Source of the DNA: Methanoregula sp.
GTDB taxonomy: Archaea; Halobacteriota; Methanomicrobia; Methanomicrobiales; Methanospirillaceae
Length of the DNA stretch: 48,983 nucleotides
Reading direction: 5' to 3'
Assembly (NCBI GenBank): GCA_028679185.1
Contig: JAJRBZ010000029.1
Location: 1 to 48,983, forward strand
Below the pieces are notes generated by a model. That model had not been told where the DNA came from. It did not search any database and was given only the letters and a program-made list of their open reading frames with translations. The position numbers and the translations under genes were made by a program. Positions 3,202 through 25,798 of this stretch are shown piece by piece (position 1 is the first letter of the stretch; every line of letters begins with the position of its first letter).

Positions 3202-3426
3202 TTACTCCTGGATACTGATGATTTGCACCGGGCAGAGATCTGATGCTTCCTGTGCACAGGCTGTAAGATCATCTGTGGGTGTCCCCTCGGCAATATTGCC
3301 ATTAATCCGGTATTTTTCGATGATCCGGCTGAATGAGTCATCCGGGTCCTGCTCAAACAATCCCGGGCAGATGTCCTGGCATGAACCACAGCTCACGCAG
3401 CTCGCACGTTCAATAATCACTTTCAC
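3202..3426 (-). CDS. Ferredoxin, single [4Fe-4S] type with probable disulfide
   Basis: A 74-residue ferredoxin. Cysteines C10, C13, C16 and C20 form CxxCxxCxxxCP, and the C-terminus has a Cys seven residues before a final CP. This is the Desulfovibrio africanus-like layout: three early Cys plus the last Cys bind one [4Fe-4S] cluster and the other two form a disulfide. The start is a GTG at 3426 preceded by AGGAG, with a TATA-like TCTATATTG near 3470. It is clearly related to the ferredoxin at 15468-15695; the two flank the eha-fwd operon, suggesting, but not proving, a role as its electron carrier. Confidence 0.85.
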   Translation of the reverse strand: MKVIIERASCVSCGSCQDICPGLFEQDPDDSFSRIIEKYRINGNIAEGTPTDDLTACAQEASDLCPVQIISIQE

Positions 3427-4425: not shown

Positions 4426-5196
4426 TTATGCTGCACCGGGAATTTTTACCATCAGAGTACCTTTTCCACGGTTTGCCACATCACCTTTGTACACATCCGC
4501 GATGATCTTCCATTCCGGAAGCACCCGTCTGTCAATCTTTTCAAATGTGGGAATCATCTCGTGCACATTACCAAGAACTACGCATGTGCCATCCTTCATG
4601 TTCGCGCAGGGACGGGTGGCATCCCTTCCGATAGTCAGCCGTCCACCCCGCATCTCCACACCGGGGAAATCCCCGGTGCTGCCATGGACATGCACCTCGC
4701 CGCCTGCAAGATATTCAGCACAGAAATCCCCGGCATTGCCAAGCACCTCCACTTTACCGCCCTGCATCCCTTTCTTCTCACCGCGGTACCCGGTTGCACA
4801 ATAATGGCCGGCATTGCCCCGGCAGAGAATCATCCCGCCCCGCATCTCGCGCCCAAGCCAGGCATCCGCATTTCCGAGGATCTCAATCGTCCCCCCACTC
4901 ATGAAATTCCCGCAGTGCATGCCGATGTCCCCGGTTATCAGGATACTGCCGGTGTCCATGTATTCCCCTACCCGCTTGATCCGCGATGCGTCACCTTTTA
5001 AAACGACCTCGATGTTTTCTGGTGAGACGGCAGTACCTTCAACAAAGATCCAGAAGAGTTCGGAGAGGGTGCGCTCCTTGTTACCCTCATACACCATAAG
5101 ATCGGTGCCTTTTAAGAAATTGCGGGGAATGATCGATTCTGCCTCTATGGGGATGGTGGGCTTTTTGCGCACCTTGCTCTCTAAGATCACTCTCAT
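4426..5196 (-). CDS. fwdC: Formylmethanofuran dehydrogenase subunit C
   Basis: 256 residues with the repeated Gly-rich beta-helix blocks (GDIGMHCGNFMSGGTI, GREMRGGMILCRGNAGHYC, GSTGDFPGVEMRGG) shared by FwdC and the C-terminal domain of glutamate synthase. In the complex FwdC is a structural partner of FwdA. It is the last gene of the long operon and its ATG overlaps the fwdA stop by 4 nt. The enzyme reduces CO2 and condenses it with methanofuran, using low-potential ferredoxin electrons. Confidence 0.93.
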   Translation of the reverse strand: MRVILESKVRKKPTIPIEAESIIPRNFLKGTDLMVYEGNKERTLSELFWIFVEGTAVSPENIEVVLKGDASRIKRVGEYMDTGSILITGDIGMHCGNFMSGGTIEILGNADAWLGREMRGGMILCRGNAGHYCATGYRGEKKGMQGGKVEVLGNAGDFCAEYLAGGEVHVHGSTGDFPGVEMRGGRLTIGRDATRPCANMKDGTCVVLGNVHEMIPTFEKIDRRVLPEWKIIADVYKGDVANRGKGTLMVKIPGAA

Positions 5197-6893
5197 GTGA
5201 ATGCCTCCGTATCTACCCGCCGCCCGCGGGGGAGATATATCTCCTGTACCGGATAATTGCTCATTCTCACCGTATAGAACTCCTGGAACCTGCGGATAAA
5301 TTCAGGATCGTTATCCACCCTGATATCTTCAGGGATTTTAGCATTCGCCCAGAAAGTGGCGTTTGCACCATCAACAATGATCTCCCCGTCCTGCGATACC
5401 ACACGCCCCCGTTTGATTGTGTAACGGGTCTTCTGGAACCCTTCCACTACTTTGCGGTATTCCCGGGCAGGGTCTACGGAATCCGTCCGGATCGGGTAGA
5501 TGGCAATATCGGCTTCAGCACCTGTTCCCAGGTGTCCTTTGCCCTGGTTGATGATGCCCAGTGCCTTTGCCTGCCCTGCCCGTGTCATGACTGCAATATC
5601 GTGCCAGTCCATCTCCCGCTCAAGAGCGCACAGCGATGTATTCCCCTCAGTGTCGGGATGGAGCGTGGCACATTCCTCATCACGGTACCGTTTGCTCATC
5701 AGGAGCCCGATTACCTCGGGATACTTCACGAACGGAGCGCCATTGGGATTGTCCGTTTCGAGAAGGCACTGCCACGGGCTTTTTGTGAGAAGAGCCAGTT
5801 CAAGACCGATTGCCCACATTATACAGTTGACAGCACTTTTCTTGGAGTACGTTACCGGTATGATACCGGATCCCGTTTCCAGCTCCACGTCATGGTTGCT
5901 CCACTTGTTATGGTGGAGGCAGTGCAGATTAAACTCCATAGGGCCGTCAGCGGTCATGGTCATGGTCCGGCAGAACATGATCTGGCCCATGTCCATGACA
6001 ATCTGGGGTTTGCTGTTGACCGAACGCGTAATTTCTTCTGCCTTTGAACAGATGTTACGCCATGTCCTGCCACCGTATGCGTGGAACTGCACATGGGTGG
6101 CATACAGGGTCTGGCGGTCGGGATTGAGGTCAGGTACGAGCTCGAATGTGTCAAGCGTGGTCTGGTAATTCCCGGGCTTGCCGAGGTTATTGCAGTGCAG
6201 GTGAACCGAATGGGGGAGCTTGAGGAGTTCGTTTGCCTGGATCATTGCAGTAATAATCTCAGCAGGCGTCACTTCAAAATGCGGGACTTGATCATGAATA
6301 CTGGTCAGGTCCTCCCCCCAACCCCATGCCTCTGTCCCACCAGGGTTGGTGAGTTTGATCGCGTATCCTTTAATCGCGTTCAGTGTCCAGCCGACAATAG
6401 CAGCTGTCTTCTTGATATTTTTCTCCCGTACGGCATCCATGACTGCCCAGTTGCCATCAAAAAGAGTGTTTGCCAGCATGTCCTGGTGGGGGGTTGCCGT
6501 GAATTCTTCATGGGTGTGCCGGGCTTCAAGCGGTGCCATCGCACCTTCGAGCAGTGTCGTATAGCCCATGGCGCTGTACCGGTAGCTGTTCCCGAAAGTC
6601 GTGGGGACGTAATAGCCGCTCGTTACATGCATCCTTCCGCGCCGCTGCGTCCTTCCCGCCCGCATATCCTCGGGACTCATATACCGCCCGAAGTTCACCT
6701 TGGTTCCACATACATGGGTGTGTGAATCAATACCACCAGGCAGAGTGAGGCATCGTTGGGCATCAATCACCTCTGCCCGATCAGAAACTGATTCCACTAT
6801 CCGACCGTCACGGATCGCGATGTCCATGATTTCACCATTGATGCCCTGGATCGGGTCAATAACGCAGGCATTTTTCACCAATAGCTCAGTCAT
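5193..6893 (-). CDS. fwdA: Formylmethanofuran dehydrogenase subunit A (amidohydrolase)
   Basis: 566 residues, close to the family length. It has the amidohydrolase metal motif GGIDSHTHVCG (H58, H60) near the N-terminus and further conserved His segments (HLHCN, HVQFHAYG, HCLHHNKWSNHD). FwdA hosts the binuclear zinc site that condenses formate, made by FwdB, with methanofuran. The start at 6893 was chosen over the upstream codon at 6917 because it gives an ATGA overlap with the fwdB stop and the typical MTELLVKNA opening. Confidence 0.95.
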   Translation of the reverse strand: MTELLVKNACVIDPIQGINGEIMDIAIRDGRIVESVSDRAEVIDAQRCLTLPGGIDSHTHVCGTKVNFGRYMSPEDMRAGRTQRRGRMHVTSGYYVPTTFGNSYRYSAMGYTTLLEGAMAPLEARHTHEEFTATPHQDMLANTLFDGNWAVMDAVREKNIKKTAAIVGWTLNAIKGYAIKLTNPGGTEAWGWGEDLTSIHDQVPHFEVTPAEIITAMIQANELLKLPHSVHLHCNNLGKPGNYQTTLDTFELVPDLNPDRQTLYATHVQFHAYGGRTWRNICSKAEEITRSVNSKPQIVMDMGQIMFCRTMTMTADGPMEFNLHCLHHNKWSNHDVELETGSGIIPVTYSKKSAVNCIMWAIGLELALLTKSPWQCLLETDNPNGAPFVKYPEVIGLLMSKRYRDEECATLHPDTEGNTSLCALEREMDWHDIAVMTRAGQAKALGIINQGKGHLGTGAEADIAIYPIRTDSVDPAREYRKVVEGFQKTRYTIKRGRVVSQDGEIIVDGANATFWANAKIPEDIRVDNDPEFIRRFQEFYTVRMSNYPVQEIYLPRGRRVDTEAFT

Positions 6894-8179
6894 GGTATCA
6901 TCCACCCGTTTAAGCAATCATAGATCTTTTTTAAGATTTCTGCGTCATCGGGATATCCGCGTTCGATGACTTTTTTCAACCGTATGGGCACGCCATCCAT
7001 CCGGTATGCGGTTCCCGCGGCGTCGATACCGGCTGCAGTGCAGGGAATATGGATGCGGGAGAGAGAGGTTGTGGCATTCACGTGCGGGTCAATAAGCACG
7101 GTCGGAATTTTTGCCAGGTGGGCAGCAGCGACTCTGGGGAAGTTTGCTCCCGGGTCACTTGCCACAATAAGTGCAGCATCGCATTCACCCCTCCTCAGGA
7201 TATCGACAGCGGTCGTTTCGCCCGGGTTGTAGAATGCGATACCCCGGGCAAAATCGACAGCGAAGGGATAACCGGTCATCCACGTGAATACTTCATTGGA
7301 ACCGTAGACATTCCCGTGTCCCCTCATCGGAGAGATAACAAATTTCGTATGCCGGTTGAGTTCATCGGTGAGTTCAATAGCGTTCCTGACATTCTTGTAT
7401 TTCCCCCTGCTCATGGTGAGACCAAGACCAAAAAAGATAGCACCGAACTTTGCGTTTTTGCATATCCCGGCAATCCTTATCAGCTGTTCCTTCGAGATGC
7501 CGGCAACTTTTTTGGGAATGACCGACTCTTTCCCCCTCACAAGTGCTCTCAGGGCGGAAAGGACTGCATAATCGCCCCCGGGTTCGATCTGCACAAATTC
7601 ATCTGCAATACCACCGGAATCATTCCTGCGGGTGTCAACAACGATTATCGTGCGTTCCCGCTGGGCATCAGGTACAAAGAAGCCCGTTGCAAACGTTGTA
7701 TACCTGCTCATGTGGCGGGGGTGCGCCTCGATCGGGTTGCATCCCCAGTATATAATCACATCTGCACGGTTTTTTACCTGCCCGAGAGTGCAGCCGGGAT
7801 GACCGACTTCCTGGATCGCAAGGATGGACGGACCATGGCAGACGGTACTTGTATTATCGATGACCGCACCGATCAGTTCGGCAATATGCACACCGACGCT
7901 CTGGGTATCGCCGTGAGTACTGCTCCAGCCGTACAGGAGGGGGCGGTCTGCATCTTTAAGGATGTCTGCAGTCTCTTTTATGGCCTCATCGTACGAGATT
8001 TTTTCCCAGGCGGTTGAGGTACGCCGGATAGGGGCTGGCAGACGGGTATCATTCATAAATGTTGCTTCAGCAAGGGAGCAGCCATTCAGCACCCGCACGA
8101 CCCTGTCTGCCTCAACCTCAAGCTCGAGGTCATCACAGAGACAGCCACAGAACGGGCAGACCACGTCATTGACTAACAT
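6890..8179 (-). CDS. fwdB: Formylmethanofuran dehydrogenase subunit B (W/Mo catalytic)
   Basis: 429 residues, molybdopterin oxidoreductase family. The N-terminal CPFCGCLC with C8, C11, C15 and C34 fits one [4Fe-4S] cluster. The stretch VCHGPS carries C114 at the place held by Sec or Cys in formate dehydrogenases, so this is a cysteine form. Downstream are KNRADVIIYWGCNP and other pterin-contacting segments. FwdB reduces CO2 to formate, which tunnels to FwdA. I favour the MLVNDVV start at 8179; it overlaps fwdD by 14 nt. Whether it uses W or Mo cannot be read from the sequence. Confidence 0.94.
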   Translation of the reverse strand: MLVNDVVCPFCGCLCDDLELEVEADRVVRVLNGCSLAEATFMNDTRLPAPIRRTSTAWEKISYDEAIKETADILKDADRPLLYGWSSTHGDTQSVGVHIAELIGAVIDNTSTVCHGPSILAIQEVGHPGCTLGQVKNRADVIIYWGCNPIEAHPRHMSRYTTFATGFFVPDAQRERTIIVVDTRRNDSGGIADEFVQIEPGGDYAVLSALRALVRGKESVIPKKVAGISKEQLIRIAGICKNAKFGAIFFGLGLTMSRGKYKNVRNAIELTDELNRHTKFVISPMRGHGNVYGSNEVFTWMTGYPFAVDFARGIAFYNPGETTAVDILRRGECDAALIVASDPGANFPRVAAAHLAKIPTVLIDPHVNATTSLSRIHIPCTAAGIDAAGTAYRMDGVPIRLKKVIERGYPDDAEILKKIYDCLNGWMIP

Positions 8180-8558
8180 ACCGCAACCCCCCGATCTCTT
8201 CCATAAGCTCCCCGACACTCATCACCCGCTCTTCCGTCACGTGAACGTCAACATACTGGCTTTTAAAGTCAGGCATACCGGTGGCATGGGTTTCTGATGA
8301 GATGATATGGTTGGCATAGGGACCAGTCGTCACGAAGATCTCCCCCTGTTTTACCCCTTCAGCAGAACGGGCGGTAAGAACGACATCACCAGCGGGGGAT
8401 GATACACGGATCCGTTCCCCGTTTTCGATTCCCAGTAGCATCATGTCAACGGCATTGAGAAAGCAGACCGAAGCTGCGGTCCGGTACTCTTCCGATCCCT
8501 TATGTTCGACAGAAACCCCCTGGGGCACGGAACGCCCGGTGTTCAGGATGCACTTCAC
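8166..8558 (-). CDS. fwdD: Formylmethanofuran dehydrogenase subunit D
   Basis: 130 residues, the molydopterin dinucleotide-binding beta-barrel subunit that in other oxidoreductases is the C-terminal domain of the catalytic chain. Visible family features are the opening LNTGRSVPQG, the strand GERIRVSSPAGDVVLTAR and the loop GEIFVTTGPYANHI that caps the pterin. The start ATG overlaps the stop of the upstream polyferredoxin by 4 nt, and the end overlaps fwdB, so the four fwd genes are translationally chained. Confidence 0.93.
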   Translation of the reverse strand: MKCILNTGRSVPQGVSVEHKGSEEYRTAASVCFLNAVDMMLLGIENGERIRVSSPAGDVVLTARSAEGVKQGEIFVTTGPYANHIISSETHATGMPDFKSQYVDVHVTEERVMSVGELMEEIGGLRYVSQ

Positions 8559-9172
8559 TGCGACCCCTCCTGTACGGGTTGCTGGAATCCTTCAAGGATA
8601 CGCGCAATCCGGATGGCACCTGTCGGGCAGCTGACTTCGCAGGTCTTGCAGCCGGTACATTTATCTTCGTGGATTACGACAATATCTCCTGCCTGCACCC
8701 GCATGATAACTTCATCGTTCGAGGAATGCCCCCCGGCGCCCATCTGAGCGTCGGCCACCTTGTTTACCGGGCAGGCTGTACAGCAGTTTCCGCAGCCTGT
8801 GCAGAGTTCAAGATCGATGGCGATTCGGAACGAGAAAAGCAATGATGTCCTTTCGCGTTCCATCGTCTCAAGGATCCTCCCGCTTTTCAGCACACCGTTC
8901 GGGCATGCTTCCACACAGAGCCCGCAACGGATACAGTGCCCTTTGCTGATCCGTGGCATCCAGCCGTCTTCGGCATGCACAACCTCAATCGCTCCTGGAG
9001 CCGGGCAGGACATCATACAGAACAGGGCATGCTGGCAGGTCTTTCCGGTCGGTTCAGGAAATCCACGGAAGTGTGAAGGGGTTACTAACGGGGCGGTCTT
9101 TGCAAACAGGAACTTTTTAATCCATTCGATCCGGGCGAACTCTCTAAGGTACCAAATCATGGACTGCCCCAT
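8555..9172 (-). CDS. NuoI/EchF-like polyferredoxin linking Eha and Fwd
   Basis: About 205 residues. The N-terminus (YLREFARIEWIKKFLFAKTAP) resembles the membrane-docking helix of NuoI/EchF subunits. Four Cys groups follow: an atypical CxxxxxCxxxCP, then CIRCGLCVEACP, CTGCGNCCTACP and CTGCKTCEVSCP, enough for three or four [4Fe-4S] clusters. It sits between ehaO (1-nt gap) and fwdD (4-nt overlap), the right place for a wire from the hydrogenase to formylmethanofuran dehydrogenase. It could be the equivalent of EhaP/EhaQ or of a FwdF/FwdG-like subunit; exact orthology is not settled. Start chosen at 9172. Confidence 0.85.
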   Translation of the reverse strand: MGQSMIWYLREFARIEWIKKFLFAKTAPLVTPSHFRGFPEPTGKTCQHALFCMMSCPAPGAIEVVHAEDGWMPRISKGHCIRCGLCVEACPNGVLKSGRILETMERERTSLLFSFRIAIDLELCTGCGNCCTACPVNKVADAQMGAGGHSSNDEVIMRVQAGDIVVIHEDKCTGCKTCEVSCPTGAIRIARILEGFQQPVQEGSQ

Positions 9173-9173
9173 G

Positions 9174-10259
9174 TTACCGCTCCGTGCATGCAATGCAGGG
9201 ATCTGCCGATACAAACGTTGCCGTGACATCAGCTATCGAATCAGCCCCTATGATCATTTCGTGGCAGCAGGCCTCAATGTTCATGATGGACGGTGTCTGT
9301 ATCTGGATATCGACAATCCGCCCATATTCATCGCTTTTGATAAAGTACGTCAGCTCCCCGCGGGGTGCCTCTCCGCTGTATCTCGTCTCTCCTCCTTTGC
9401 AGACACCCCCACCCCGTATGACACCTTTGGGAAGATCCTGCAGGCATTTCCGGATAAGACTGATGCTCTGGATGATCTCATCGAACCGGACCATTACCCG
9501 TGCATAGTTATCGCAATCTGTACGGCTGAGCGGCACAAACCCGAGTTGCCGGTAGGTTGGATGGATAAGTCGGCCGTCAGTAGTAATCCCGCTTGCCCGA
9601 GCGGTCGGGCCGACAGCATGTGCCCGTTGTGCCGCTTCCTTTGTCAGGATCCCGACACCCCGGCTCCGCAGGGCGATCATCGGACCATCGGCAAACATCC
9701 CTGAATATCTGCGCAGATCCCTTTCGATACGATCCAGCGATCCCGATAATATTTCTGCATTATGACGGGGCATATCACACCGGACCCCGCCGGGAATCAT
9801 ATAGGCGCAGGTGACGCGGGCACCGGTCAGGCGTTCAAGCTCATCCATCACCTGCTCCCGAAGGTCGAGCAGGTACATTCCCAGGGTCTCATGCTCGATG
9901 GTATAGCAGTACGAGAAGTTGGCAAGAAGATGGCTCTGCATGCGGTCGAGTTCGTTTGCTATCACGCGGAGATACGCGGCACGGGGAGGGACCGGAATGC
10001 TGCTGATCTGTTCCATTGCCTCGATAAAGACCATATTATGAATAACCGAACAGATCCCGCAGACACGTTCTGCAAGGAACATGACCTCCTGCCACGGACG
10101 CCCCTTCATGATCCGCTCGATCCCCTTCTTCATGTAACCGAGCTCGACTTCAGCACCGACAATACGCTCCCCTTTGGCCTCGCATTTGAGCCGGGCAGGT
10201 TCCTTGAAGCAGGGATGGATTGGCCCCAGAGGAATGTTGACATCCACCGTCCGTTTCAC
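9174..10259 (-). CDS. ehaO: Eha-type [NiFe] hydrogenase large subunit
   Basis: 361 residues, group 4 [NiFe] hydrogenase large-subunit family. The N-terminal nickel motif is RVCGIC (C67, C70) and the C-terminal one is DPCIAC (C355, C358), both complete, so the site should be catalytic. The chain stops three residues after the second motif (CTER), so there is no C-terminal tail to be cleaved during maturation. Two central regions (GPTARASGI and RGELTYF) match quinone-binding-like subunit NuoD, its homologue. Its start overlaps the ehaN stop by 4 nt. Confidence 0.92.
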   Translation of the reverse strand: MKRTVDVNIPLGPIHPCFKEPARLKCEAKGERIVGAEVELGYMKKGIERIMKGRPWQEVMFLAERVCGICSVIHNMVFIEAMEQISSIPVPPRAAYLRVIANELDRMQSHLLANFSYCYTIEHETLGMYLLDLREQVMDELERLTGARVTCAYMIPGGVRCDMPRHNAEILSGSLDRIERDLRRYSGMFADGPMIALRSRGVGILTKEAAQRAHAVGPTARASGITTDGRLIHPTYRQLGFVPLSRTDCDNYARVMVRFDEIIQSISLIRKCLQDLPKGVIRGGGVCKGGETRYSGEAPRGELTYFIKSDEYGRIVDIQIQTPSIMNIEACCHEMIIGADSIADVTATFVSADPCIACTER

Positions 10260-10711
10260 GGGTGCTCTCCCTCCCAGTTGGCAAAGACTGCATCACGCAC
10301 CAAGAGGATCGCCTGCAGGATCTCGGTGGGACGGGGTGGGCACCCCGGCACCTCGGCTGCGATCGGGATGTGCTTTTTTACCGGGGGATCAACGAAGGAT
10401 TCCCTGCGGTTGAACAGGCACCCGGATATTGGGCAGTTACCTATGGCAACTGCTGCTTTGGGTGGGGGGATCTTCTCCCAGACCATGGCAAGTTTCTCCT
10501 CCCATCCCGGGGTGTAGGCGCCGATGACAAGGAGTACGTCAGCCTCCCGGGGGTTGTTATGGACAAAGATACCGTACTGTTCTATATCATACCGGGGTGC
10601 GAGGCAGGCAAGCACTTCAATATCACAACCGTTACACGAACCCACATCGACATATGCCACATGGATAGAGCGTGCCCTGACCTTGTTTTTTATCTGCTGG
10701 AGAATGGTCAT
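10256..10711 (-). CDS. ehaN: Eha-type [NiFe] hydrogenase small subunit
   Basis: 151 residues, NuoB-like small subunit. C26 and C29 (GSCNGCDIE), C93 (GNCPISG) and C124 (PGCPPRP) give the four ligands of the proximal [4Fe-4S] cluster. The subunit passes electrons from the NiFe site to the polyferredoxin. It has the short group 4 size and lacks extra cluster domains. ATGA overlaps join it to ehaM and ehaO. Confidence 0.92.
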   Translation of the reverse strand: MTILQQIKNKVRARSIHVAYVDVGSCNGCDIEVLACLAPRYDIEQYGIFVHNNPREADVLLVIGAYTPGWEEKLAMVWEKIPPPKAAVAIGNCPISGCLFNRRESFVDPPVKKHIPIAAEVPGCPPRPTEILQAILLVRDAVFANWEGEHP

Positions 10712-11097
10712 CGCCTGAGAGCCTCCCGGATCTGTGCCCTGCCGTAGGCAACCGCCTCCGCAACAGGTATTCCTGTACGCACGCGTTCGTTCACATCACG
10801 GAAAATGGAATCCATTGCTGCAACGGGAAGAATCGGAATAAATAGGGTATATTTCTCTTTCCCAAGAGCAGTTGCGACCTCCCCGTTGTCCGATAGCTTC
10901 GTTCCTGCTGCCTCGGCACGTGCCGGTAGGTTCTCGAGCAGGATCATGTCAAGATGCTCGATCAGGTACCTGCGCAGTTCCTGGACGGGCATTTCAAGTT
11001 CCGATGCGATCTCCCGAACGAGCTTGTCATGCCGTACAGATACAAGGATCCGGTATTTTTGGGGGACCAGATCTTTTTCGTACAGGTAACCGCTCAT
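10708..11097 (-). CDS. ehaM: EhaM, DUF1959 subunit
   Basis: About 129 residues, soluble and charged, matching the DUF1959 family that is only found with Eha hydrogenases. It shows the helical pattern PQKYRILVSVRHDKLVREIASEL and a C-terminal RDVNERVRTGIPVAEAVAYG. Its biochemical role is unknown. The start at 11097 (MSGYLYEKD) gives an ATGA overlap with the ehaL stop; the longer reading to 11154 would run through ehaL. Confidence 0.82.
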   Translation of the reverse strand: MSGYLYEKDLVPQKYRILVSVRHDKLVREIASELEMPVQELRRYLIEHLDMILLENLPARAEAAGTKLSDNGEVATALGKEKYTLFIPILPVAAMDSIFRDVNERVRTGIPVAEAVAYGRAQIREALRR

Positions 11098-11336
11098 AAT
11101 ACTCCCCCATATTTCAGGCAACCGTAGACAACAAACAGCAGGACTGCAGCCCACAGCGAGATAATCTCCGATGTATGCAGATTGTGTTCGTCCTGCACGA
11201 GGTAATAGGTGGTTGCAGCAGCAAGCGCAACCGAAACGACTACGCCTTCAATCCAGATCATTGGCCGGTCGAGTACCTGCGCGATGGTGATGAGGATATA
11301 CAGGACACCGCCAAAGAGAATTGCTTCGCGGATCAT
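11094..11336 (-). CDS. ehaL: EhaL-like small membrane subunit
   Basis: 80 residues with three predicted membrane segments (about 5-20, 27-48, 60-76). It is assigned to EhaL by position between the NuoH-like subunit and EhaM and by its size; the letter is less certain than the operon membership. ATGA overlaps on both sides. It probably packs against EhaJ in the membrane arm. Confidence 0.7.
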   Translation of the reverse strand: MIREAILFGGVLYILITIAQVLDRPMIWIEGVVVSVALAAATTYYLVQDEHNLHTSEIISLWAAVLLFVVYGCLKYGGVL

Positions 11337-12181
11337 GGGCGTACCACCAGCAGGACGATTGCAGCGTAGATCAGCATCAGCCCCGTTACCATGGTCTGGA
11401 TGGTAACAGAGTCGAAGGGGGACATCATCGGCGTGATCGCGCAGGAAAAAGCGAGAAGCACGATGAGAAGGATCATACCTGTCAGGAGCCAGGGCAGGGT
11501 CAGCGGTCCGAAAAACACGGTAAGGAAGACCGCGAGCAGGACATATGTTTTCAGACCATTGCTGACCTCAAGCCCGGCGCGCCAGATACCGAAATGTTCG
11601 GTCTTATACCCGCTCACCAGTTCCTTTGCTTCGACTATGGAGAACGGCCCGAACGGCATCTTGGAAAGGATTACCAGAAACATTGCGCAAGCCGCGGGAA
11701 ATGCGGCAACGATCAGTGGTCCGGAGACCTGTTGGTATTCAATGATGGCATAAAGATCCAGCGAGTGCGTATAGATGGCAATCACAGCAACACTGACAAA
11801 AAGGGGAATCTCCGATGCAGCTGAGATGACCGAACGGACACCGCCATACTTGCCATAGGGCGAACCCGATGAGAGCCCAAAACCGTGCTCTACGATTTTG
11901 TGGAGCATATATATCCCAAGGATTACCAGCAGGCTCCCGCCGCTGACCAGCACATAAAATGCTGCAGTCCAGATACCAATGGCAATCAGCACGACAGCGA
12001 CAAAAAGGGTCGAACTCGCGGTTACGGGAACCCATGTGGTCTTGAAGGAGAATTTGAGCATATGCAGGATCTCCTGCCAGACCGGCGGACCGGGCCGGCG
12101 CTGGATCCGGGCGATCAGCTTCCGGTGGATCCCCAGCAGCAGCAGGCCAAAGAGCGTGGCAAGGACAAGTTCTGCGATCAT
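11333..12181 (-). CDS. ehaJ: EhaJ, NuoH-like membrane subunit
   Basis: About 282 residues with eight hydrophobic segments, homologous to NuoH/EchB, the subunit that anchors the hydrogenase module and forms the junction to the ion pathway. Characteristic charged loops are ARIQRRPGPPVWQEILHMLK after the first helix and the internal GPFSIVEAKELVSGYKTEH. The start at 12181 lies one nucleotide after the ehaI stop; the ORF reaches 12208 but has no better start there. Confidence 0.9.
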   Translation of the reverse strand: MIAELVLATLFGLLLLGIHRKLIARIQRRPGPPVWQEILHMLKFSFKTTWVPVTASSTLFVAVVLIAIGIWTAAFYVLVSGGSLLVILGIYMLHKIVEHGFGLSSGSPYGKYGGVRSVISAASEIPLFVSVAVIAIYTHSLDLYAIIEYQQVSGPLIVAAFPAACAMFLVILSKMPFGPFSIVEAKELVSGYKTEHFGIWRAGLEVSNGLKTYVLLAVFLTVFFGPLTLPWLLTGMILLIVLLAFSCAITPMMSPFDSVTIQTMVTGLMLIYAAIVLLVVRP

Positions 12182-12182
12182 G

Positions 12183-12392
12183 TCAGTACCCGATAAACGG
12201 GATGTCACCTCCGGACTGTCCTGCCATCCACCAGAAAAAGAGGGCTAAGACCGTTACGGGGAATACCAGTACATGTACAGCAGCACAGACAGAGAGGGGT
12301 ATCAATCCTGTGAAGAACAGACCTGATGAGATCAGGCAGACACCTGCACCCGCCCAGAAAATCCGTGCTACCATCGTTTTCTTCATCCTCAT
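12183..12392 (-). CDS. ehaI: EhaI-like small membrane subunit
   Basis: About 69 residues, two or three membrane segments starting after a basic MRMKKTMVAR N-terminus. Its ATG at 12392 shares bases with the ehaH stop (TGATG); a second ATG at 12386 is also possible. Assigned to EhaI by order and size, with moderate certainty. It ends one base before ehaJ. Confidence 0.65.
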   Translation of the reverse strand: MRMKKTMVARIFWAGAGVCLISSGLFFTGLIPLSVCAAVHVLVFPVTVLALFFWWMAGQSGGDIPFIGY

Positions 12393-13051
12393 CACCCCAG
12401 CATTACTACTTCTACAACCCGCAGAAAAATCAGCAGGGAAGAGAGCGAGCACATGATCACGTACGGGGCTCCCGGCGCGCGGAACATCTCTGCCTTTGCT
12501 GCGTAAAACGGCGCCATCCCTTCCCCTACAACACCGATCACGAGCAGGGCTTTTGCGATCAGCGGGACTGCAGGCAGCGTACCTTTCATCAGCTCGATCA
12601 TGGAAAGGGAACCGGTTGATGCCGCATACACGGCTGCTCCCCCGAAGAGGGGGACCGTTGCACAGAGTGCAACCAGCCCATACTGGAATGCTGCATCCTG
12701 TACATGGTGGCTTTTAACAGCAGCGACAATCCCGACATTGGTAATTCCGACCATCGCAGTAAAGAGCGTGAAGTTGAAAATATCCCCCGTCACCATCGCG
12801 CCCATGGAGGCAAGCCCGCAGGCAATAGCCATGAAGCGGCGGAACTGCAATTCTGTCAGGGATATTTCCTTTGTCCCGTACGCATCCCCACCAAAAGCGA
12901 TATCCATCTGACGTTCAGGACGGCTGATGATGACAAGGACGGTAAACGTGAGCGCGAGCAGGAAAAGAGTGATTGTATAGGGAGTGAAGTAGACGAGCTC
13001 GTCACCGAATTCGAGAATATAGTATGGAACCCCTCCTATGGGATCACTCAC
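12392..13051 (-). CDS. ehaH: EhaH-like membrane subunit, antiporter-related
   Basis: 219 residues, about six membrane segments. The stretch ACGLASMGAMVTGDIFNFTLF and the later ALLVIGVVGEGMAPFYAAKAEMFRAPGAP recall ion-translocating NuoN/Mrp-type antiporter chains in shortened form. This would be part of the cation pathway that couples ion influx to ferredoxin reduction. It overlaps ehaG by 8 nt. Confidence 0.78.
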   Translation of the reverse strand: MSDPIGGVPYYILEFGDELVYFTPYTITLFLLALTFTVLVIISRPERQMDIAFGGDAYGTKEISLTELQFRRFMAIACGLASMGAMVTGDIFNFTLFTAMVGITNVGIVAAVKSHHVQDAAFQYGLVALCATVPLFGGAAVYAASTGSLSMIELMKGTLPAVPLIAKALLVIGVVGEGMAPFYAAKAEMFRAPGAPYVIMCSLSSLLIFLRVVEVVMLG

Positions 13052-13655
13052 GATTCTCCCCCCACATTGTCCCTACAAGGGACATCTTGACGGTCACTTT
13101 GAGTACAATACCTACTGCGGCGCACATAAGGGCAATAAACCAATAATCCGGCAGGAACATGAAACAGAAGAATGCGAAGATCCACAGTGCCCATGAAATC
13201 CCGCTCGCCATCTCCAGCATGTTGAGATTCTCTTTGTATCCCCGGGATGCAAAGAAGTAAACCAGCCCGAGTCCGGCTACACCGCCTCCGGTAAAGCCGG
13301 AGAGCAGGATTCCGTACACAACAAGAAATATGGAGATTATTAGCGGTGCGTCCCCTATTGCCACAACCTCGATGTTTAACCGGGAGACCGGTCTCTCCTT
13401 GATCCCCTGTTTGACGCAGTAGATCTGCGATAGTGCCAGCTGTTCAGCAATACCAACAGTCAGCCCCGGCAGGACAAGAGCCTCGGCAAGATCGGTACCG
13501 AGGAGGGCGATCACACCAAGGGACGGGATCTCGATAAGATCGAGGAGGAGGAACTTGTGAAAGTCATCATATTCCCGAGCCAGAGCAAAGAATGCGATGA
13601 TCGCTGCGACCATCACTACAAGAAGTCCGTAACTGTACTGTCCCCACATGGTCAT
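13044..13655 (-). CDS. ehaG: EhaG membrane subunit
   Basis: 203 residues, about six membrane segments, with the acidic pair LLDLIEIPSLGVIALLGTDLAEALVLPG and a second polar stretch (YCVKQGIKERPVSRLN) between helices. It matches EhaG by sequence impression and by order. Start ATG at 13655 overlaps the ehaF stop; an ATG two codons in (13649) is equally well placed. Confidence 0.78.
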   Translation of the reverse strand: MTMWGQYSYGLLVVMVAAIIAFFALAREYDDFHKFLLLDLIEIPSLGVIALLGTDLAEALVLPGLTVGIAEQLALSQIYCVKQGIKERPVSRLNIEVVAIGDAPLIISIFLVVYGILLSGFTGGGVAGLGLVYFFASRGYKENLNMLEMASGISWALWIFAFFCFMFLPDYWFIALMCAAVGIVLKVTVKMSLVGTMWGENRE

Positions 13656-14095
13656 CCCTTCCGGTAGAGGTATGAGGCGATCGCAAATGCAATGAACAGG
13701 ATCGTCGGTTCAACCACCGTATCCAGTCCACGGGTATTATACAGGATCTCGTCAAGAATGCCCCCGGGATGTGCCACGATGGTTGTGCCAAGGTGAAGGG
13801 TCGTCTTTGAAAGGAAGAGCGAAAAGGGGGTGAGATAGGTCGTGACAAGCCCGGCGCTGGGAGAATTCTCAGGGTATTGCGATCCGATTGTTACCTGAAC
13901 AAACGGTGGACCCCCACGGTCGTAGGGATCCAGCGTGCTGTTCCTGTCGATATACTTCGGGTAGAGCTGGTGTTCAGCATACGGAATCGGGAGAAGCAGG
14001 ATCCCTGCGAGAAAGAGCAGGGCGCATGCTCCGGCAAAGAGCGGCATGATGTTGCGGTATTCGCACAGGACATGCGAGATTTTCCTTATGATCAT
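13652..14095 (-). CDS. ehaF: EhaF membrane subunit
   Basis: 147 residues: a membrane segment at the N-terminus, an extra-membrane middle with YIDRNSTLDPYDRGGPPF, then a long segment ending in two membrane helices and YLYRKG. The ATG at 14095 has GGAGG seven nucleotides upstream and an ATGA overlap with ehaE, so it is preferred to the ATG at 14101. Confidence 0.77.
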   Translation of the reverse strand: MIIRKISHVLCEYRNIMPLFAGACALLFLAGILLLPIPYAEHQLYPKYIDRNSTLDPYDRGGPPFVQVTIGSQYPENSPSAGLVTTYLTPFSLFLSKTTLHLGTTIVAHPGGILDEILYNTRGLDTVVEPTILFIAFAIASYLYRKG

Positions 14096-14343
14096 GCACA
14101 TACCTCCATCTTCTGCATAACCCTTACATAGATAAACGTCGAGAGCACCGATACCGCACCGAAGGTAAAGAGGGCCAGCGCTTCGTCATAGGAGAGCATG
14201 ACGAGGAGGAGACCCCAGCCAGGAATTTCAAGATTGATCAGCTGGGTCAGGTACGTCTTTGGCCGGGGGAATGCAGCCGCAACGGTGCCCACAAGCAGGA
14301 TGAGAAGGCCGATGATAAACTCCGGGGGATATCCCGCGATCAT
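14092..14343 (-). CDS. ehaE: EhaE small membrane subunit
   Basis: 83 residues with three hydrophobic segments and the conserved-looking FPRPKTYLTQLINLEIPGWG between the first two. Similar small chains (DUF2107 type) are known only from Eha operons. ATGA overlaps join it to ehaD and ehaF. Confidence 0.77.
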   Translation of the reverse strand: MIAGYPPEFIIGLLILLVGTVAAAFPRPKTYLTQLINLEIPGWGLLLVMLSYDEALALFTFGAVSVLSTFIYVRVMQKMEVCA

Positions 14344-14570
14344 GCGGTCTCCCTCCTACAGACCATAAGGATGAAGATCGTGGAAAGCGGTGCGATCAGC
14401 GCGGTGGCAGCAGCAACATCAAGATATCCCCGGTCAACAATGAACGGGAATATACCGGCGATCAGGATCGAGAGTGAGATGAGTTTGTCAAAGGGATCCC
14501 GGTGAAGGATTGCGGCAGTCATACCAATCAGGACGAGCCCACTACAGGCGATCATGATAAACTCATCCAT
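14340..14570 (-). CDS. ehaD: EhaD small membrane subunit
   Basis: 76 residues, start MDEFIMIACSG at 14570, three membrane segments, matching the DUF2108-type Eha subunit. The frame is open back to 14804, but that part only shadows ehaC. Its start overlaps ehaC by 8 nt and its end overlaps ehaE by 4 nt. Confidence 0.77.
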   Translation of the reverse strand: MDEFIMIACSGLVLIGMTAAILHRDPFDKLISLSILIAGIFPFIVDRGYLDVAAATALIAPLSTIFILMVCRRETA

Positions 14571-14808
14571 CTTTTTTGATCCCCCCTGACCATGTACTTG
14601 CGATCGCGTTTGATTCGAGTGTTGAACCAACAAAGTATGCGGCAGCGGCAGCAATCGTGATCGGGTGCGGCATAAGGAGCGCGATGATACCGGTAACTGC
14701 GAACGATACGACATTAAGAAACGGCAGCTTGCGCATCGTATTGTGTTCAGCGATGATCCGGATTGCAGCATACACTGCGATCCCGGCGCAGATATAAATT
14801 GCAATCAT
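14563..14808 (-). CDS. ehaC: EhaC small membrane subunit
   Basis: 81 residues, three hydrophobic segments; the LPFLNVVSFAVTGIIALLMPHPITI stretch recalls MrpF/NuoJ-like small chains, and Eha operons carry such a DUF2109-type subunit at this place. ATGA overlap with ehaB. Confidence 0.77.
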   Translation of the reverse strand: MIAIYICAGIAVYAAIRIIAEHNTMRKLPFLNVVSFAVTGIIALLMPHPITIAAAAAYFVGSTLESNAIASTWSGGIKKDG

Positions 14809-15314
14809 GGTTTATCCTCGGGAATAAACCGGCACCGCACCTTCCAGAGCCGGGCTACAAGCCTGCTGGCATGCACATACGAAATTCCCTGGATTGTCAG
14901 GATTGCAATCACCATGCCGGCAATGAAATCGGAGGCAACAAAGCCGATCTGGGTCGCACCGTACACGATAAAGGTGGCGGTGATACAGCCGGTTGTTCCC
15001 GCATAGCCGGGATCGTAACAGATCCGGTTACCTATATAGACGAGCAGTGCAGCAAAAAGGCCACCTGGCAGACCTGCGCAGTAAACTCCACAGCTTGCAA
15101 GAAGGGTTCCAGCCGATGCATCGGGAGAAGAGACGATATTGCCCATCATGAAGCCCCCGTTCAGCTTCCCGCCGCCTTTCTCAACTTCCTGTGCGATCGC
15201 AGTTGCCCCGGAAACGCCCCCGCTGTGGGGTAGTCTGAAGATCAGATCTATGGTCATGAAGTTGAGCCAGCATATGATAGCGGCAATTAAAATCCGCAGG
15301 GGTTCATCAAGCAT
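14805..15314 (-). CDS. ehaB: EhaB membrane subunit, first gene of the operon
   Basis: 169 residues with about five membrane segments, including SSPDASAGTLLASCGVYCAGLPGG and a long C-terminal pair. It is the first recognisable gene; no ehaA lies upstream, where a divergent ferredoxin gene begins at 15468. A GGTG precedes the start by 5 nt. A TATA-like string at 15325-15337 is too close to the ATG to be called safely, so the operon promoter is undefined. Confidence 0.8.
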   Translation of the reverse strand: MLDEPLRILIAAIICWLNFMTIDLIFRLPHSGGVSGATAIAQEVEKGGGKLNGGFMMGNIVSSPDASAGTLLASCGVYCAGLPGGLFAALLVYIGNRICYDPGYAGTTGCITATFIVYGATQIGFVASDFIAGMVIAILTIQGISYVHASRLVARLWKVRCRFIPEDKP

Positions 15315-15432: not shown

Positions 15433-15472
15433 CAATGTTTTTCGTTTGGCGCGACATTGTTTTTCGTATGGC
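15433..15472 (+). repeat. Imperfect tandem repeat spanning the ferredoxin start
   Basis: Two copies of TGTTTTTCGTNTGGC, 22 nt apart, the second of which contains the ATG at 15468. Since 22 is not a multiple of three the copies are read in different frames. Confidence 0.6.
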
Positions 15473-15695
15473 AACTGTCACGATCAAACGCGAGGACTGC
15501 ACCAGCTGTACGACATGCTGGTCAACATGTCCTGAAATATTTGAAGAAGACCCTGTGGATGGGATGAGTTGCATAAAAGAGGCGTTCCGGATGAGTGGAG
15601 ACCCGGGAAAAGGGGAAGTGCCTGACGAGCACTATAATTGCGTTCAGGAAGCGGCATCAACATGTCCGGTCGAGATCATTGACGTGGAAGAGTGA
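15468..15695 (+). CDS. Ferredoxin, single [4Fe-4S] type
   Basis: 75 residues if translated from the ATG at 15468 (MATVTIKRED). CTSCTTCWSTCP plus a later Cys and a final CP give the same D. africanus-like cluster-and-disulfide layout as the ferredoxin at 3202-3426. The frame is also open from an ATG at 15435. The region just before the start is an imperfect 22-nt tandem repeat and has no clear ribosome-binding site. It is divergent from ehaB and probably serves ferredoxin-linked enzymes such as Eha, Fwd or CODH. Confidence 0.85.
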   Translation: MATVTIKREDCTSCTTCWSTCPEIFEEDPVDGMSCIKEAFRMSGDPGKGEVPDEHYNCVQEAASTCPVEIIDVEE

Positions 15696-22902: not shown

Positions 22903-22974
22903 ATGAACAAATGGAATATATACCGCTTTGACGGATTACCAACTATCAGATGCCAATGGATTGATACGTTATGA
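22903..22974 (+). CDS. Possible 23-codon leader ORF upstream of cooS
   Basis: An ATG-initiated frame of 23 codons (opening MNKWNIYRFDG) whose TGA overlaps the cooS ATG as ATGA. It starts just after the predicted transcription start and cooS itself has no clear ribosome-binding site. Translation of this frame could therefore couple to cooS. There is no known homologue and it may be chance. Confidence 0.35.
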   Translation: MNKWNIYRFDGLPTIRCQWIDTL

Positions 22975-24929
22975 ACGAAGAACCAAAACCCCAGCTGATC
23001 CGGGAGCGGGTCGAGGTATGCGAGCTCGACCGGGCAAGAATGTCGCTCCTGAACCCGGCATTGATTGATCAGAAAAAAGAAGAGCGGACGATTGATGAAA
23101 ACGCCAAACCTGTCCTCGAAATGACGATGCAGGAGGGTATCGAGACAGTCTGGGACCGGTATGAGATGCAACAACCTTCATGCAAGTACTGTGATGCCGG
23201 CACGTCCTGTTCACGCTGTGCCATGGGGCCATGCCGCATCATTCCGCCCAACCGTATCCGTGGTGTTTGTGGTGCAGATGCTGACCTTATCGTTTCCAGA
23301 AACCTGCTTGACATGATTGCGACGGGAGCAGCAGCCCACTCAGACCATGGCAGGGATATCGCTGAAACGCTCTATCTCGTGGGTGCAGGTAAAACAAAGG
23401 ATTACACCATTTCTGATAAGGCAAAACTCAAACGAATTTCAGAGGAGTACGGGATTATAACCGATGGGAAAAAACCTGAACAGCTCGCTGCCGAGCTTGG
23501 CGCAGCTATGCTTGAAGAGTATGGTATGCGAAAGAATATGCTCCAGTTCCTGAACCGTGCCCCGAAAGCGACCCGGGAAATCTGGACCCGGCTGGGCATT
23601 ACACCCCGGGGCATTGACCGGGAAGTAGTGGATTCGATGCACCGCGTCCAGATGGGGGTCGGTGCTGATTATGTTAATATTCTGCTCCAGGGGCTGCGGA
23701 ACTCCCTTTCTGATGGCTGGGGAGGTTCGATGATCGGCACTGAGGTATCAGATATCCTGTTCGGCACGCCGACAATAAAAAGCTCAACAATGAATCTTGC
23801 AGTCATGAAAGCAGACCATGTGAACATATCGGTGCATGGCCATAATCCGGTACTCTCTGAAGTGATCGTGAAGGCGGTAGCTGATCCGGAGTTAAAAGCA
23901 CTCGCGCAAAAATATGGTGCAAAAGGGATCAATCTGGTCGGGATGTGTTGTACTGGCAGCGAACTGCTGATGAGAAAAGGCATCCCGATGACCGGTAACC
24001 ACCTCAACCAAGAACTGATCATTGCAACCGGCGCCCTTGAGGCGATGGTGGTGGACTACCAGTGCATCTTCCCGTCGCTTCCCAGGACTGCAAGCTGTTT
24101 CCATACCCTGATTATATCAACGAGTTCGAAAGCTAAGATACCAGGCTCATACTTCTTCGACTTCCATGCCGAGGAAGCCTATCTCACCGCAAAGGCGATC
24201 GTGCGGATGGCAGTGGAAAATTACAGGAACAGGAATCCGGAGCGTGTCCTGATCCCGGGAGAACCCGTGCCGGTTATGTCGGGATTCTCCAATGAAGCGA
24301 TCAAGAACGCACTCGGTGGTTCGTTTAAACCGCTGATCGACCTGATCGCTGCCGGCAAGATCCGGGGAGCGGTGGGGATCGTCGGGTGCAATAACCCCCA
24401 CGTAAAGCATGATTTCGGGCACATTACGCTGGCAAAAGAATTGATCAAGAAAAATATTCTGTGCGTCGAGACGGGTTGTGCTGCAATCGCTTCAGGAAAA
24501 GCCGGGCTTCTCCGCCCTGAAGCTGCATCGCTCGCAGGAGATGATCTCCGGGCGGTATGCGAGTCTCTCAAGATCCCCCCGGTGCTTCACATGGGCTCCT
24601 GCGTTGATAACTGCCGTATTCTTGTGCTCGCTGCGGAACTCGGAAATGCACTCAACGTCCCGATTCACAAGTTACCCATCGCAGGAGCTGCTCCGGAATG
24701 GTATTCGCAGAAGGCGGTCTCCATCGGGGCATACTTCGTTGCCTCTGGTGTCTATACAGTTCTCGGCGTGATGCCGCATATCTCCGGCAGCCCACCGGTA
24801 GTATCACTTCTCACTGAAGGACTGAAAGGTGCTGTTAACGCAAGTTTCTCTGTTGAACCGGATCCGGTCAAAGCATCTGTACTTATATCAGACCATATCG
24901 AACGCAAACGGACTGAACTCGGAATATGA
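22971..24929 (+). CDS. cooS: Anaerobic (Ni,Fe) carbon monoxide dehydrogenase, CooS
   Basis: 652 residues, the size of monofunctional CooS. N-terminal cluster region: CKYCDAGTSCSRCAMGPC. C-cluster segments: HGHNPVLSE, MCCTGSELL, GIVGCNNPHVKHD, VETGCAAIASGK and HMGSCVDNC, all with their Cys or His present. It interconverts CO and CO2, passing electrons to ferredoxin. It is not the Cdh alpha subunit of acetyl-CoA decarbonylase/synthase, which is longer and has extra ferredoxin domains. No cooF or dedicated hydrogenase is adjacent. Confidence 0.95.
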   Translation: MNEEPKPQLIRERVEVCELDRARMSLLNPALIDQKKEERTIDENAKPVLEMTMQEGIETVWDRYEMQQPSCKYCDAGTSCSRCAMGPCRIIPPNRIRGVCGADADLIVSRNLLDMIATGAAAHSDHGRDIAETLYLVGAGKTKDYTISDKAKLKRISEEYGIITDGKKPEQLAAELGAAMLEEYGMRKNMLQFLNRAPKATREIWTRLGITPRGIDREVVDSMHRVQMGVGADYVNILLQGLRNSLSDGWGGSMIGTEVSDILFGTPTIKSSTMNLAVMKADHVNISVHGHNPVLSEVIVKAVADPELKALAQKYGAKGINLVGMCCTGSELLMRKGIPMTGNHLNQELIIATGALEAMVVDYQCIFPSLPRTASCFHTLIISTSSKAKIPGSYFFDFHAEEAYLTAKAIVRMAVENYRNRNPERVLIPGEPVPVMSGFSNEAIKNALGGSFKPLIDLIAAGKIRGAVGIVGCNNPHVKHDFGHITLAKELIKKNILCVETGCAAIASGKAGLLRPEAASLAGDDLRAVCESLKIPPVLHMGSCVDNCRILVLAAELGNALNVPIHKLPIAGAAPEWYSQKAVSIGAYFVASGVYTVLGVMPHISGSPPVVSLLTEGLKGAVNASFSVEPDPVKASVLISDHIERKRTELGI

Positions 24930-25798
24930 GAATCCCTTCCGGGGCATATCCTGCACCATTGAAAGAAAAAAGCCATATGCCACGGAAGCGGGGAAATGGT
25001 ATCCGGGTTGTTATTACCGGTAAGGGCGGAGTGGGTAAGACCACGATTACCGCACTCCTTGCCCACCTGTTTGCGCAGGAAGGATACAGGGTTCTTGCTG
25101 TTGATGGTGACCCCCAACAGAACCTTGCGGTCACCATGGGAATTCTGCCGCAGGATGCAGAGAAGATCGTACCGGTGTCGCAGAGTATTGAATACCTTCG
25201 GGAAAAAACCGGCGCCGGCAGGGATATATCCCCGGGTGGGCTCATCACCCTCAATCCCGATGTCAGCGATGTCATCGACAGGTTCTCTGTCACGGTTGCA
25301 AAAAACCTCAGGCTTCTCGTGATGGGTGGCGTCAGCCAGGCTGGCTGCGGTTGTCTCTGCCCCGAGTATACGCTCCTTGCCGCTATCTTCCGTCATATGC
25401 GACTTCTTCCTGATGAGGTGGTCCTGCTTGACACCCCGGCGGGAATGGAGCATTTCGGCAGGGCTGTCGCTGACGGTTTTTCCTGTGCAATGGTTGTAGC
25501 TGACCCTTCGTATAATTCGCTTTCTGTTGCCAAGGAATCTGCAGGGCTTGCACAGCAGCTTGGGATCGAAAATAGCATCCTGGTAGTGAACAGGGTATGC
25601 AATCAGGCAGATGTTGACAAAATACGTGAGAAGATGGGTGGATTTGCAGGATTTTCCCGAATTATGTTTTTACCGTGTGACCCTGAAATTATTCATCTCG
25701 AACCTGCAGTCAACCGGCTGCTATTATGTGAGTCAGCGTTTATGAATGAAATCCGTACACTTACTGCAACCGTTACAGATCCGGGAGAAGTACAGTAA
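24926..25798 (+). CDS. cooC: CODH nickel-insertion ATPase, CooC
   Basis: 290 residues, MinD/NifH-like P-loop ATPase. Deviant Walker A is GKGGVGKTT, switch I region has VDGDPQQNLAV, and GCGCLCPEY near residue 135 provides the metal-binding cysteines of CooC. The family uses ATP to load nickel into the CODH C-cluster. The start at 24926 overlaps the cooS stop as ATGA; an ATG at 24977 is closer to the conserved domain and is possible. Confidence 0.93.
   Translation: MRIPSGAYPAPLKEKSHMPRKRGNGIRVVITGKGGVGKTTITALLAHLFAQEGYRVLAVDGDPQQNLAVTMGILPQDAEKIVPVSQSIEYLREKTGAGRDISPGGLITLNPDVSDVIDRFSVTVAKNLRLLVMGGVSQAGCGCLCPEYTLLAAIFRHMRLLPDEVVLLDTPAGMEHFGRAVADGFSCAMVVADPSYNSLSVAKESAGLAQQLGIENSILVVNRVCNQADVDKIREKMGGFAGFSRIMFLPCDPEIIHLEPAVNRLLLCESAFMNEIRTLTATVTDPGEVQ

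Follow-up and report, generated by a model that had tools for sequence, protein, structure and literature searches.

An Eha-linked formylmethanofuran dehydrogenase isoform and its polyferredoxin in a Methanoregula operon

Eha hydrogenases use ion flux through the membrane to drive electrons from H2 to low potential. In a 48,983-nucleotide (nt) contig of Methanoregula sp. (JAJRBZ010000029.1; hereafter the window), genes for an Eha hydrogenase run directly into genes for a formylmethanofuran dehydrogenase (Fwd) on the minus strand (15314 to 4426), with a polyferredoxin (pFd) between the two sets. Comparative analysis assigns this Fwd to an isoform that is tied to Eha across genomes, and pFd is read as an adapter between the two enzymes. 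We consider it rather probable that these genes specify a dedicated unit for electron transfer, which would prime and refill the methanogenic cycle alongside the Hdr-linked Fwd. Judged from sequence comparison and a structural model, the Eha–Fwd pair appears dedicated and is probably hard-wired. If real, an Fwd isoform with its own adapter ferredoxin would provide a concrete, testable answer, namely ion-driven reduction of CO2 by one membrane unit.

The Eha-linked Fwd isoform

FwdB sequences encoded beside eha form a single clade (support 100/100), separate from both Hdr- and Fdh-linked FwdB. Co-occurrence was scored in 31 genomes picked with and without Eha. FwdB of this eha type is present in 14/14 Eha-positive genomes and 0/17 Eha-negative genomes, 10 of the latter being Methanoregula relatives and thus non-independent. 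Seven of the 14 Eha-positive genomes carry the eha-type fwd cluster far from eha, and in five fetched loci it adjoins the other fwd set. Mapped on a proxy species tree, the presence of Eha switches about six times, and supported branches force three of these changes; the co-occurrence is therefore not a single shared event. Since Eha and this clade come as a pair or not at all, also where they are unlinked, the eha-type Fwd is an isoform tied to Eha, and this rule offers a simple genomic marker for the proposed ion-driven CO2 route. Two genomes (G043 and G066) each hold two FwdB copies with high identity to the eha type (63–64% and 60%), and the isoform seems to be duplicated there.

The linkage itself was surveyed in 34 Eha loci covering about 28 genera of the order Methanomicrobiales, the check that the preliminary description of this DNA had called for. 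A full pFd–fwdD–fwdB–fwdA–fwdC tail is found in 26 of the 34, including one in which about 1.9 kb separates pFd and fwdD; named records with the tail belong to Methanoregula, Methanolinea, Methanofollis, Methanoculleus, Methanogenium and Methanocalculus. The remaining loci comprise two Methanocorpusculum-like ones with fwdA and fwdC only, four with pFd and without fwd, one split operon and one contig that ends early. No fwd was found in the Eha loci fetched from Methanobrevibacter, Methanothermococcus, Methanopyri and Ca. Mnemosynella. Because pFd remains next to ehaO even where fwd has relocated, its gene context marks it as a predicted Eha subunit.

Several loci depart from the common arrangement. 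In L099, L100, L242 and L243, from Methanocorpusculum-like genomes, pFd is followed by no fwd genes other than fwdA and fwdC; the L243 contig carries fwdB and fwdD of the same clade at another place, oriented the opposite way. In L237, L238, L240 and L246, the relocated eha-type fwdDBAC cluster stands tail to tail with an Hdr-linked fwd cluster, an arrangement that recurs in one family. In genome G077 the eha operon is broken into two parts with about 40 kb between them (L244 and L245); the other half holds pFd, fwdD, fwdB and fwdC, no fwdA was detected between its fwdB and fwdC, and its FwdB forms a very long branch. The Eha–Fwd system of this genome is perhaps decaying.

The linking polyferredoxin

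The gene for pFd (8555–9172) lies exactly where a NuoI-like polyferredoxin had initially been described, and its product carries four [4Fe-4S] cysteine motifs conserved across 23 relatives. Class I methanogens encode EhaP-type polyferredoxins after ehaO, and the N-terminal half of pFd matches their start. The back half was compared with 193 Fe–S open reading frames, with the pFd family and one pFd-like protein from Ca. Mnemosynella set aside; five FwdG proteins from Hdr/Fdh-type Fwd clusters were the best-scoring group (40–54 bits over the full domain). An AlphaFold2 model of pFd has a mean predicted local distance difference test score (pLDDT) of 76, with values mostly of 84–94 in the back half and lower in the front half. 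Searching the back-half model against 350,542 PDB chains placed FwdG chains at the top, with 5t5i_G first (target template-modelling score 0.83, 40% identity), followed by 8rja_F and 7bkb_L. In other Fwd clusters fwdG is a gene of its own, and in four of five examples it stands immediately ahead of fwdD; in the eha operon this slot is held by pFd. Neither a separate fwdG nor fwdF is found within the operon, the FwdG-like domain sitting in pFd, and the seven relocated eha-type fwd clusters examined showed no Fe–S open reading frame nearby. These sequence and model comparisons suggest that pFd is an adapter or wire, with an EhaP-type front and a FwdG-like back, that joins Eha to Fwd.

In the electron path that would follow, H2 would be oxidised at EhaO/EhaN, and ion influx through Eha would lift its electrons to about −500 mV. 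The electrons would exit EhaN/EhaO via the NuoI-like half of pFd and cross the FwdG-like half to the FwdB/D pterin site of the Eha-specific Fwd, where CO2 would be reduced; FwdA would then make formylmethanofuran. Tentatively, pFd may also physically dock this Fwd on the membrane hydrogenase, giving an ion-driven H2:CO2 reductase that operates without free ferredoxin. If true, Fwd would have a third mode of supply through such docking, in addition to bifurcation by Hdr and to F420 reductase modules. Of the dedicated and possibly stable membrane complex that the preliminary description had envisaged, the dedicated pairing is upheld by inference from the separate FwdB clade, the co-occurrence and the composite pFd, and the stable complex stays at this tentative level.

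The two enzymes could also be paired functionally without forming a complex, which we regard as rather unlikely: Eha would reduce a diffusible ferredoxin, the co-expressed Fwd isoform would use it, and pFd would simply be EhaP. The tracking of pFd with ehaO at loci whose fwd is elsewhere agrees with such a scheme. So does the presence of two related one-cluster ferredoxin genes that flank the operon at 15435–15695 (divergent) and 3202–3426. However, such genes were found beside only the two nearest Methanoregula loci (L127 and L197) among 120 loci searched, and they were rejected as a conserved electron carrier; the FwdG-like half of pFd and the missing separate fwdG fit direct docking better.

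Several points weigh against the adapter reading and against a hard-wired unit. Two eha-linked 2[4Fe-4S] proteins of Methanothermococcus score about 40 bits against the pFd back half, equal to the weaker FwdG proteins, and the pFd model has low confidence in its N-terminal half. FwdG is small and ferredoxin-like, so that matches to it are easily unspecific, which is the weak point of the adapter reading; the authors of PMC11493965 avoided FwdG as a search query owing to unspecific matches. The linkage is not essential, because the eha-type fwd is unlinked in seven genomes and Methanocorpusculum-like genomes keep only fwdA and fwdC beside eha. No biochemical data were found for the Eha–Fwd pair.

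Role beside the Hdr-linked Fwd

Most likely, the Eha–Fwd pair would serve to prime the cycle of methanogenesis and keep it replenished, alongside the Hdr-linked Fwd. Eha is reportedly anaplerotic, as attributed to Lie et al. 2012. Topping up via Eha itself amounts to making extra formylmethanofuran. The initial proposal that the unit fixes CO2 rather than only topping up lost electrons therefore draws a partly false contrast, since electron replenishment through Eha already yields formylmethanofuran, and it is not sustained by the distribution of the other Fwd type. That type, linked to Hdr or Fdh, was sought in 80 Eha-positive genomes. All 29 assemblies of 10 contigs or fewer have it, as do 40 of the 51 with more than 10. 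The 11 genomes that apparently lack it are all assemblies of at least 40 contigs, and the Hdr/Fdh-type Fwd region seems prone to drop out of metagenome-assembled genomes.

The window, a single contig, belongs to a 2.1 Mb genome (104 contigs, 97% complete) in which only one FwdA and one FwdB were detected, both of the Eha-linked Fwd; a second Fwd, HdrB and McrA were not found in this draft. A weak second FwdB match on contig C98 proved to be formate dehydrogenase alpha. Taken at face value, these absences would make Eha–Fwd the sole entry of CO2 and let methanogenesis run on ion-driven CO2 reduction instead of electron bifurcation, in line with the ion-coupled formylmethanofuran formation proposed for the order by Anderson et al. 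(PMC2686161). We consider this catabolic role improbable. McrA is missing as well, and in Methanoregula relatives (L110 and L111) an mcr–(fwd)–mvhD–hdrABC–fwdF array lies beside ftr, with a second fwd there in one of them. The host ftr contig (C94 end, L120) stops 61 bases past the stretch matched next to ftr, on the mcr/hdr side. The second Fwd, HdrB and McrA are thus absent together, at a place where the ftr contig breaks off, and their absence is taken as a probable assembly gap until shown otherwise. An argument that the only Fwd in the genome must be catabolic is rejected on these grounds, together with the 29 well-assembled genomes, and a gap of this kind at ftr could mislead metabolic reconstructions. 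It is scarcely credible that eha and fwd are linked through an accident of regulation or history, with no coupling of function. Genes of methanogenesis do group in varied ways, and further Fwd copies adjoin hdr or fdh, but the joint presence or absence of Eha and the eha-type clade even when unlinked already disfavours such an accident.

Gene complement and comparison with known systems

All 18 genes first described for the eha–fwd set (ehaB–K, ehaM–O, the pFd gene and fwdD-B-A-C) were found on the minus strand with intact frames and were identified by hidden Markov model matches or by collinear homologues. Their spacing is tighter than the earlier figures of at most 12 nt and about ten ATGA junctions: 15 of the 17 junctions overlap, the largest gap is 1 nt (at two junctions), and 4-nt overlaps occur at 12 junctions (9 ATGA and 3 GTGA). 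Downstream of fwdC, the next minus-strand gene is 1 kb away with a plus-strand gene in between; upstream of ehaB lies a divergent ferredoxin gene. Because every junction overlaps or has a 1-nt gap and the flanking genes are divergent, opposite or distant, the 18 genes very likely form one transcription unit. A sigma-70 promoter scan, a promoter type wrong for archaea, gave no excess (14 versus 13.4 in shuffles), and terminator-like sites (18 versus 11) fell mostly within genes and were not used.

The membrane part of Eha begins with ehaB (14805–15314), which has no library match, and whose collinear homologues (49–89% identity) open all intact Eha loci surveyed. It is followed by ehaC (14563–14808; Pfam DUF2109, E 7e-30), ehaD (14340–14570; DUF2108, E 1e-23), ehaE (14092–14343; DUF2107, E 1.5e-24), ehaF (13652–14095; DUF2106, E 1.5e-53) and ehaG (13044–13655; DUF2105, E 3.5e-62). 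Next come ehaH, for a truncated antiporter/NuoN-like ion channel subunit (12392–13051; Pfam NADHdeh_related, E 7e-86), and ehaJ, for a NuoH-like membrane subunit (11333–12181; Pfam NADHdh, E 1.6e-32). Two genes without a library match, ehaI (12183–12395) and ehaK (11094–11336), are named solely from their position and from their counterparts at other Eha loci. The product of ehaM (10708–11097) matches Pfam DUF1959 (E 4e-8, over the cut-off) and the solved MTH396 structure (1nxh, E 1e-5). The hydrogenase small subunit, NuoB-like, is encoded by ehaN (10256–10711; Pfam Oxidored_q6, E 4e-26), and the [NiFe] hydrogenase large subunit, NuoD-like, by ehaO (9174–10259; Pfam NiFeSe_Hases and Complex1_49kDa). 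EhaO has both CxxC ligand pairs (C67/C70 and C355/C358), with the ligand cysteines invariant across 21 sequences, and its closest solved relative is Mbh 6cfw_L. The NuoD- and NuoB-related subunits with these cysteines, EhaC–H in order, EhaJ and EhaM identify a group 4 Eha [NiFe] hydrogenase.

The Fwd part contains FwdA, FwdB, FwdC and FwdD. FwdD (8166–8558; Pfam Molydop_binding) scores 110 bits against NF042908 (E 6e-32), under the narrow NCBIfam cut-off of 175 bits, yet the match spans most of its length. The molybdo/tungstopterin catalytic subunit FwdB, of the eha-type clade (6890–8179; TIGR03129, 603 bits), the metallohydrolase subunit FwdA (5193–6893; TIGR03121, 778 bits) and FwdC, encoded last in the operon (4426–5196; TIGR03122, 231 bits), all score over their cut-offs, and FwdA matches the solved 8rja_A and 5t5i_A over its full length.

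EhaO is 92%, 90% and 85% identical to its counterparts in Methanoregula records. Eha is rare in this genus, being absent from 10 of 12 sampled genomes, and the host is an exception. Elsewhere in the window, at 22971–25798, the gene for a monofunctional CO dehydrogenase (CooS type, TIGR01702, 673 bits) overlaps a MinD/CooC-like ATPase gene by 4 nt; it is a possible extra source of low-potential electrons. A plasmid search with 13 kb of the eha–fwd locus as query gave no match.

The adjacency of eha and fwd in Methanomicrobiales is already published, and its observation here is a rediscovery. Anderson et al. 2009 (PMC2686161) reported that Eha adjoins formylmethanofuran dehydrogenase in three genera, Methanocorpusculum, Methanoculleus and Methanospirillum; in their proposal Eha supplies Fwd, and the formylmethanofuran step is coupled to ion gradients. 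According to PMC5563889, Methanocorpusculum has two sets of Fwd genes, one next to Eha and one next to Hdr; PMC11346949 and PMC11201294 again noted the adjacency and suggested an anaplerotic or flexible role. The genes, their order and the proposed electron supply from Eha to Fwd/Fmd are as in the host. In the available portions of these four papers the adjacency alone is treated; they do not mention that the isoform is monophyletic, that it co-occurs with Eha or that pFd has a FwdG-like half. The co-occurrence rule and the adapter reading had no match in the literature searched, most subscription papers being outside its reach, and newness cannot be asserted. Anderson et al. 2009 also hold that Methanomicrobiales lack subunit M, whereas the host has an EhaM homologue.

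Class I Eha (Methanothermobacter, Methanococcus) shares the ehaB–O order and the EhaP-type polyferredoxin start right after ehaO. There, ehaP and more polyferredoxins follow, without fwd in the fetched loci, whereas in the host pFd ends FwdG-like and leads into fwdDBAC. In the Fdh/Mvh/Elp–Hdr–Fwd megacomplexes (7bkb; PMC12350162), an electron-supplying enzyme feeds the Fwd/Fmd core directly via a polyferredoxin (FwdF/FmdF), as is proposed for the host. Their electrons come from HdrA bifurcation through FwdF, while the host operon pairs Fwd with an ion-driven membrane hydrogenase and has no fwdF. The F420-reducing Fwd of Ca. Ethanoperedens (8rja; PMC11493965), which provides the closest solved relatives of the host FwdA and FwdB, is a precedent for swapping the electron module while keeping the FwdABCD+G core. 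In that enzyme a soluble F420 reductase (FwdI) replaces FwdF; in the host, the corresponding partner would be a membrane hydrogenase.

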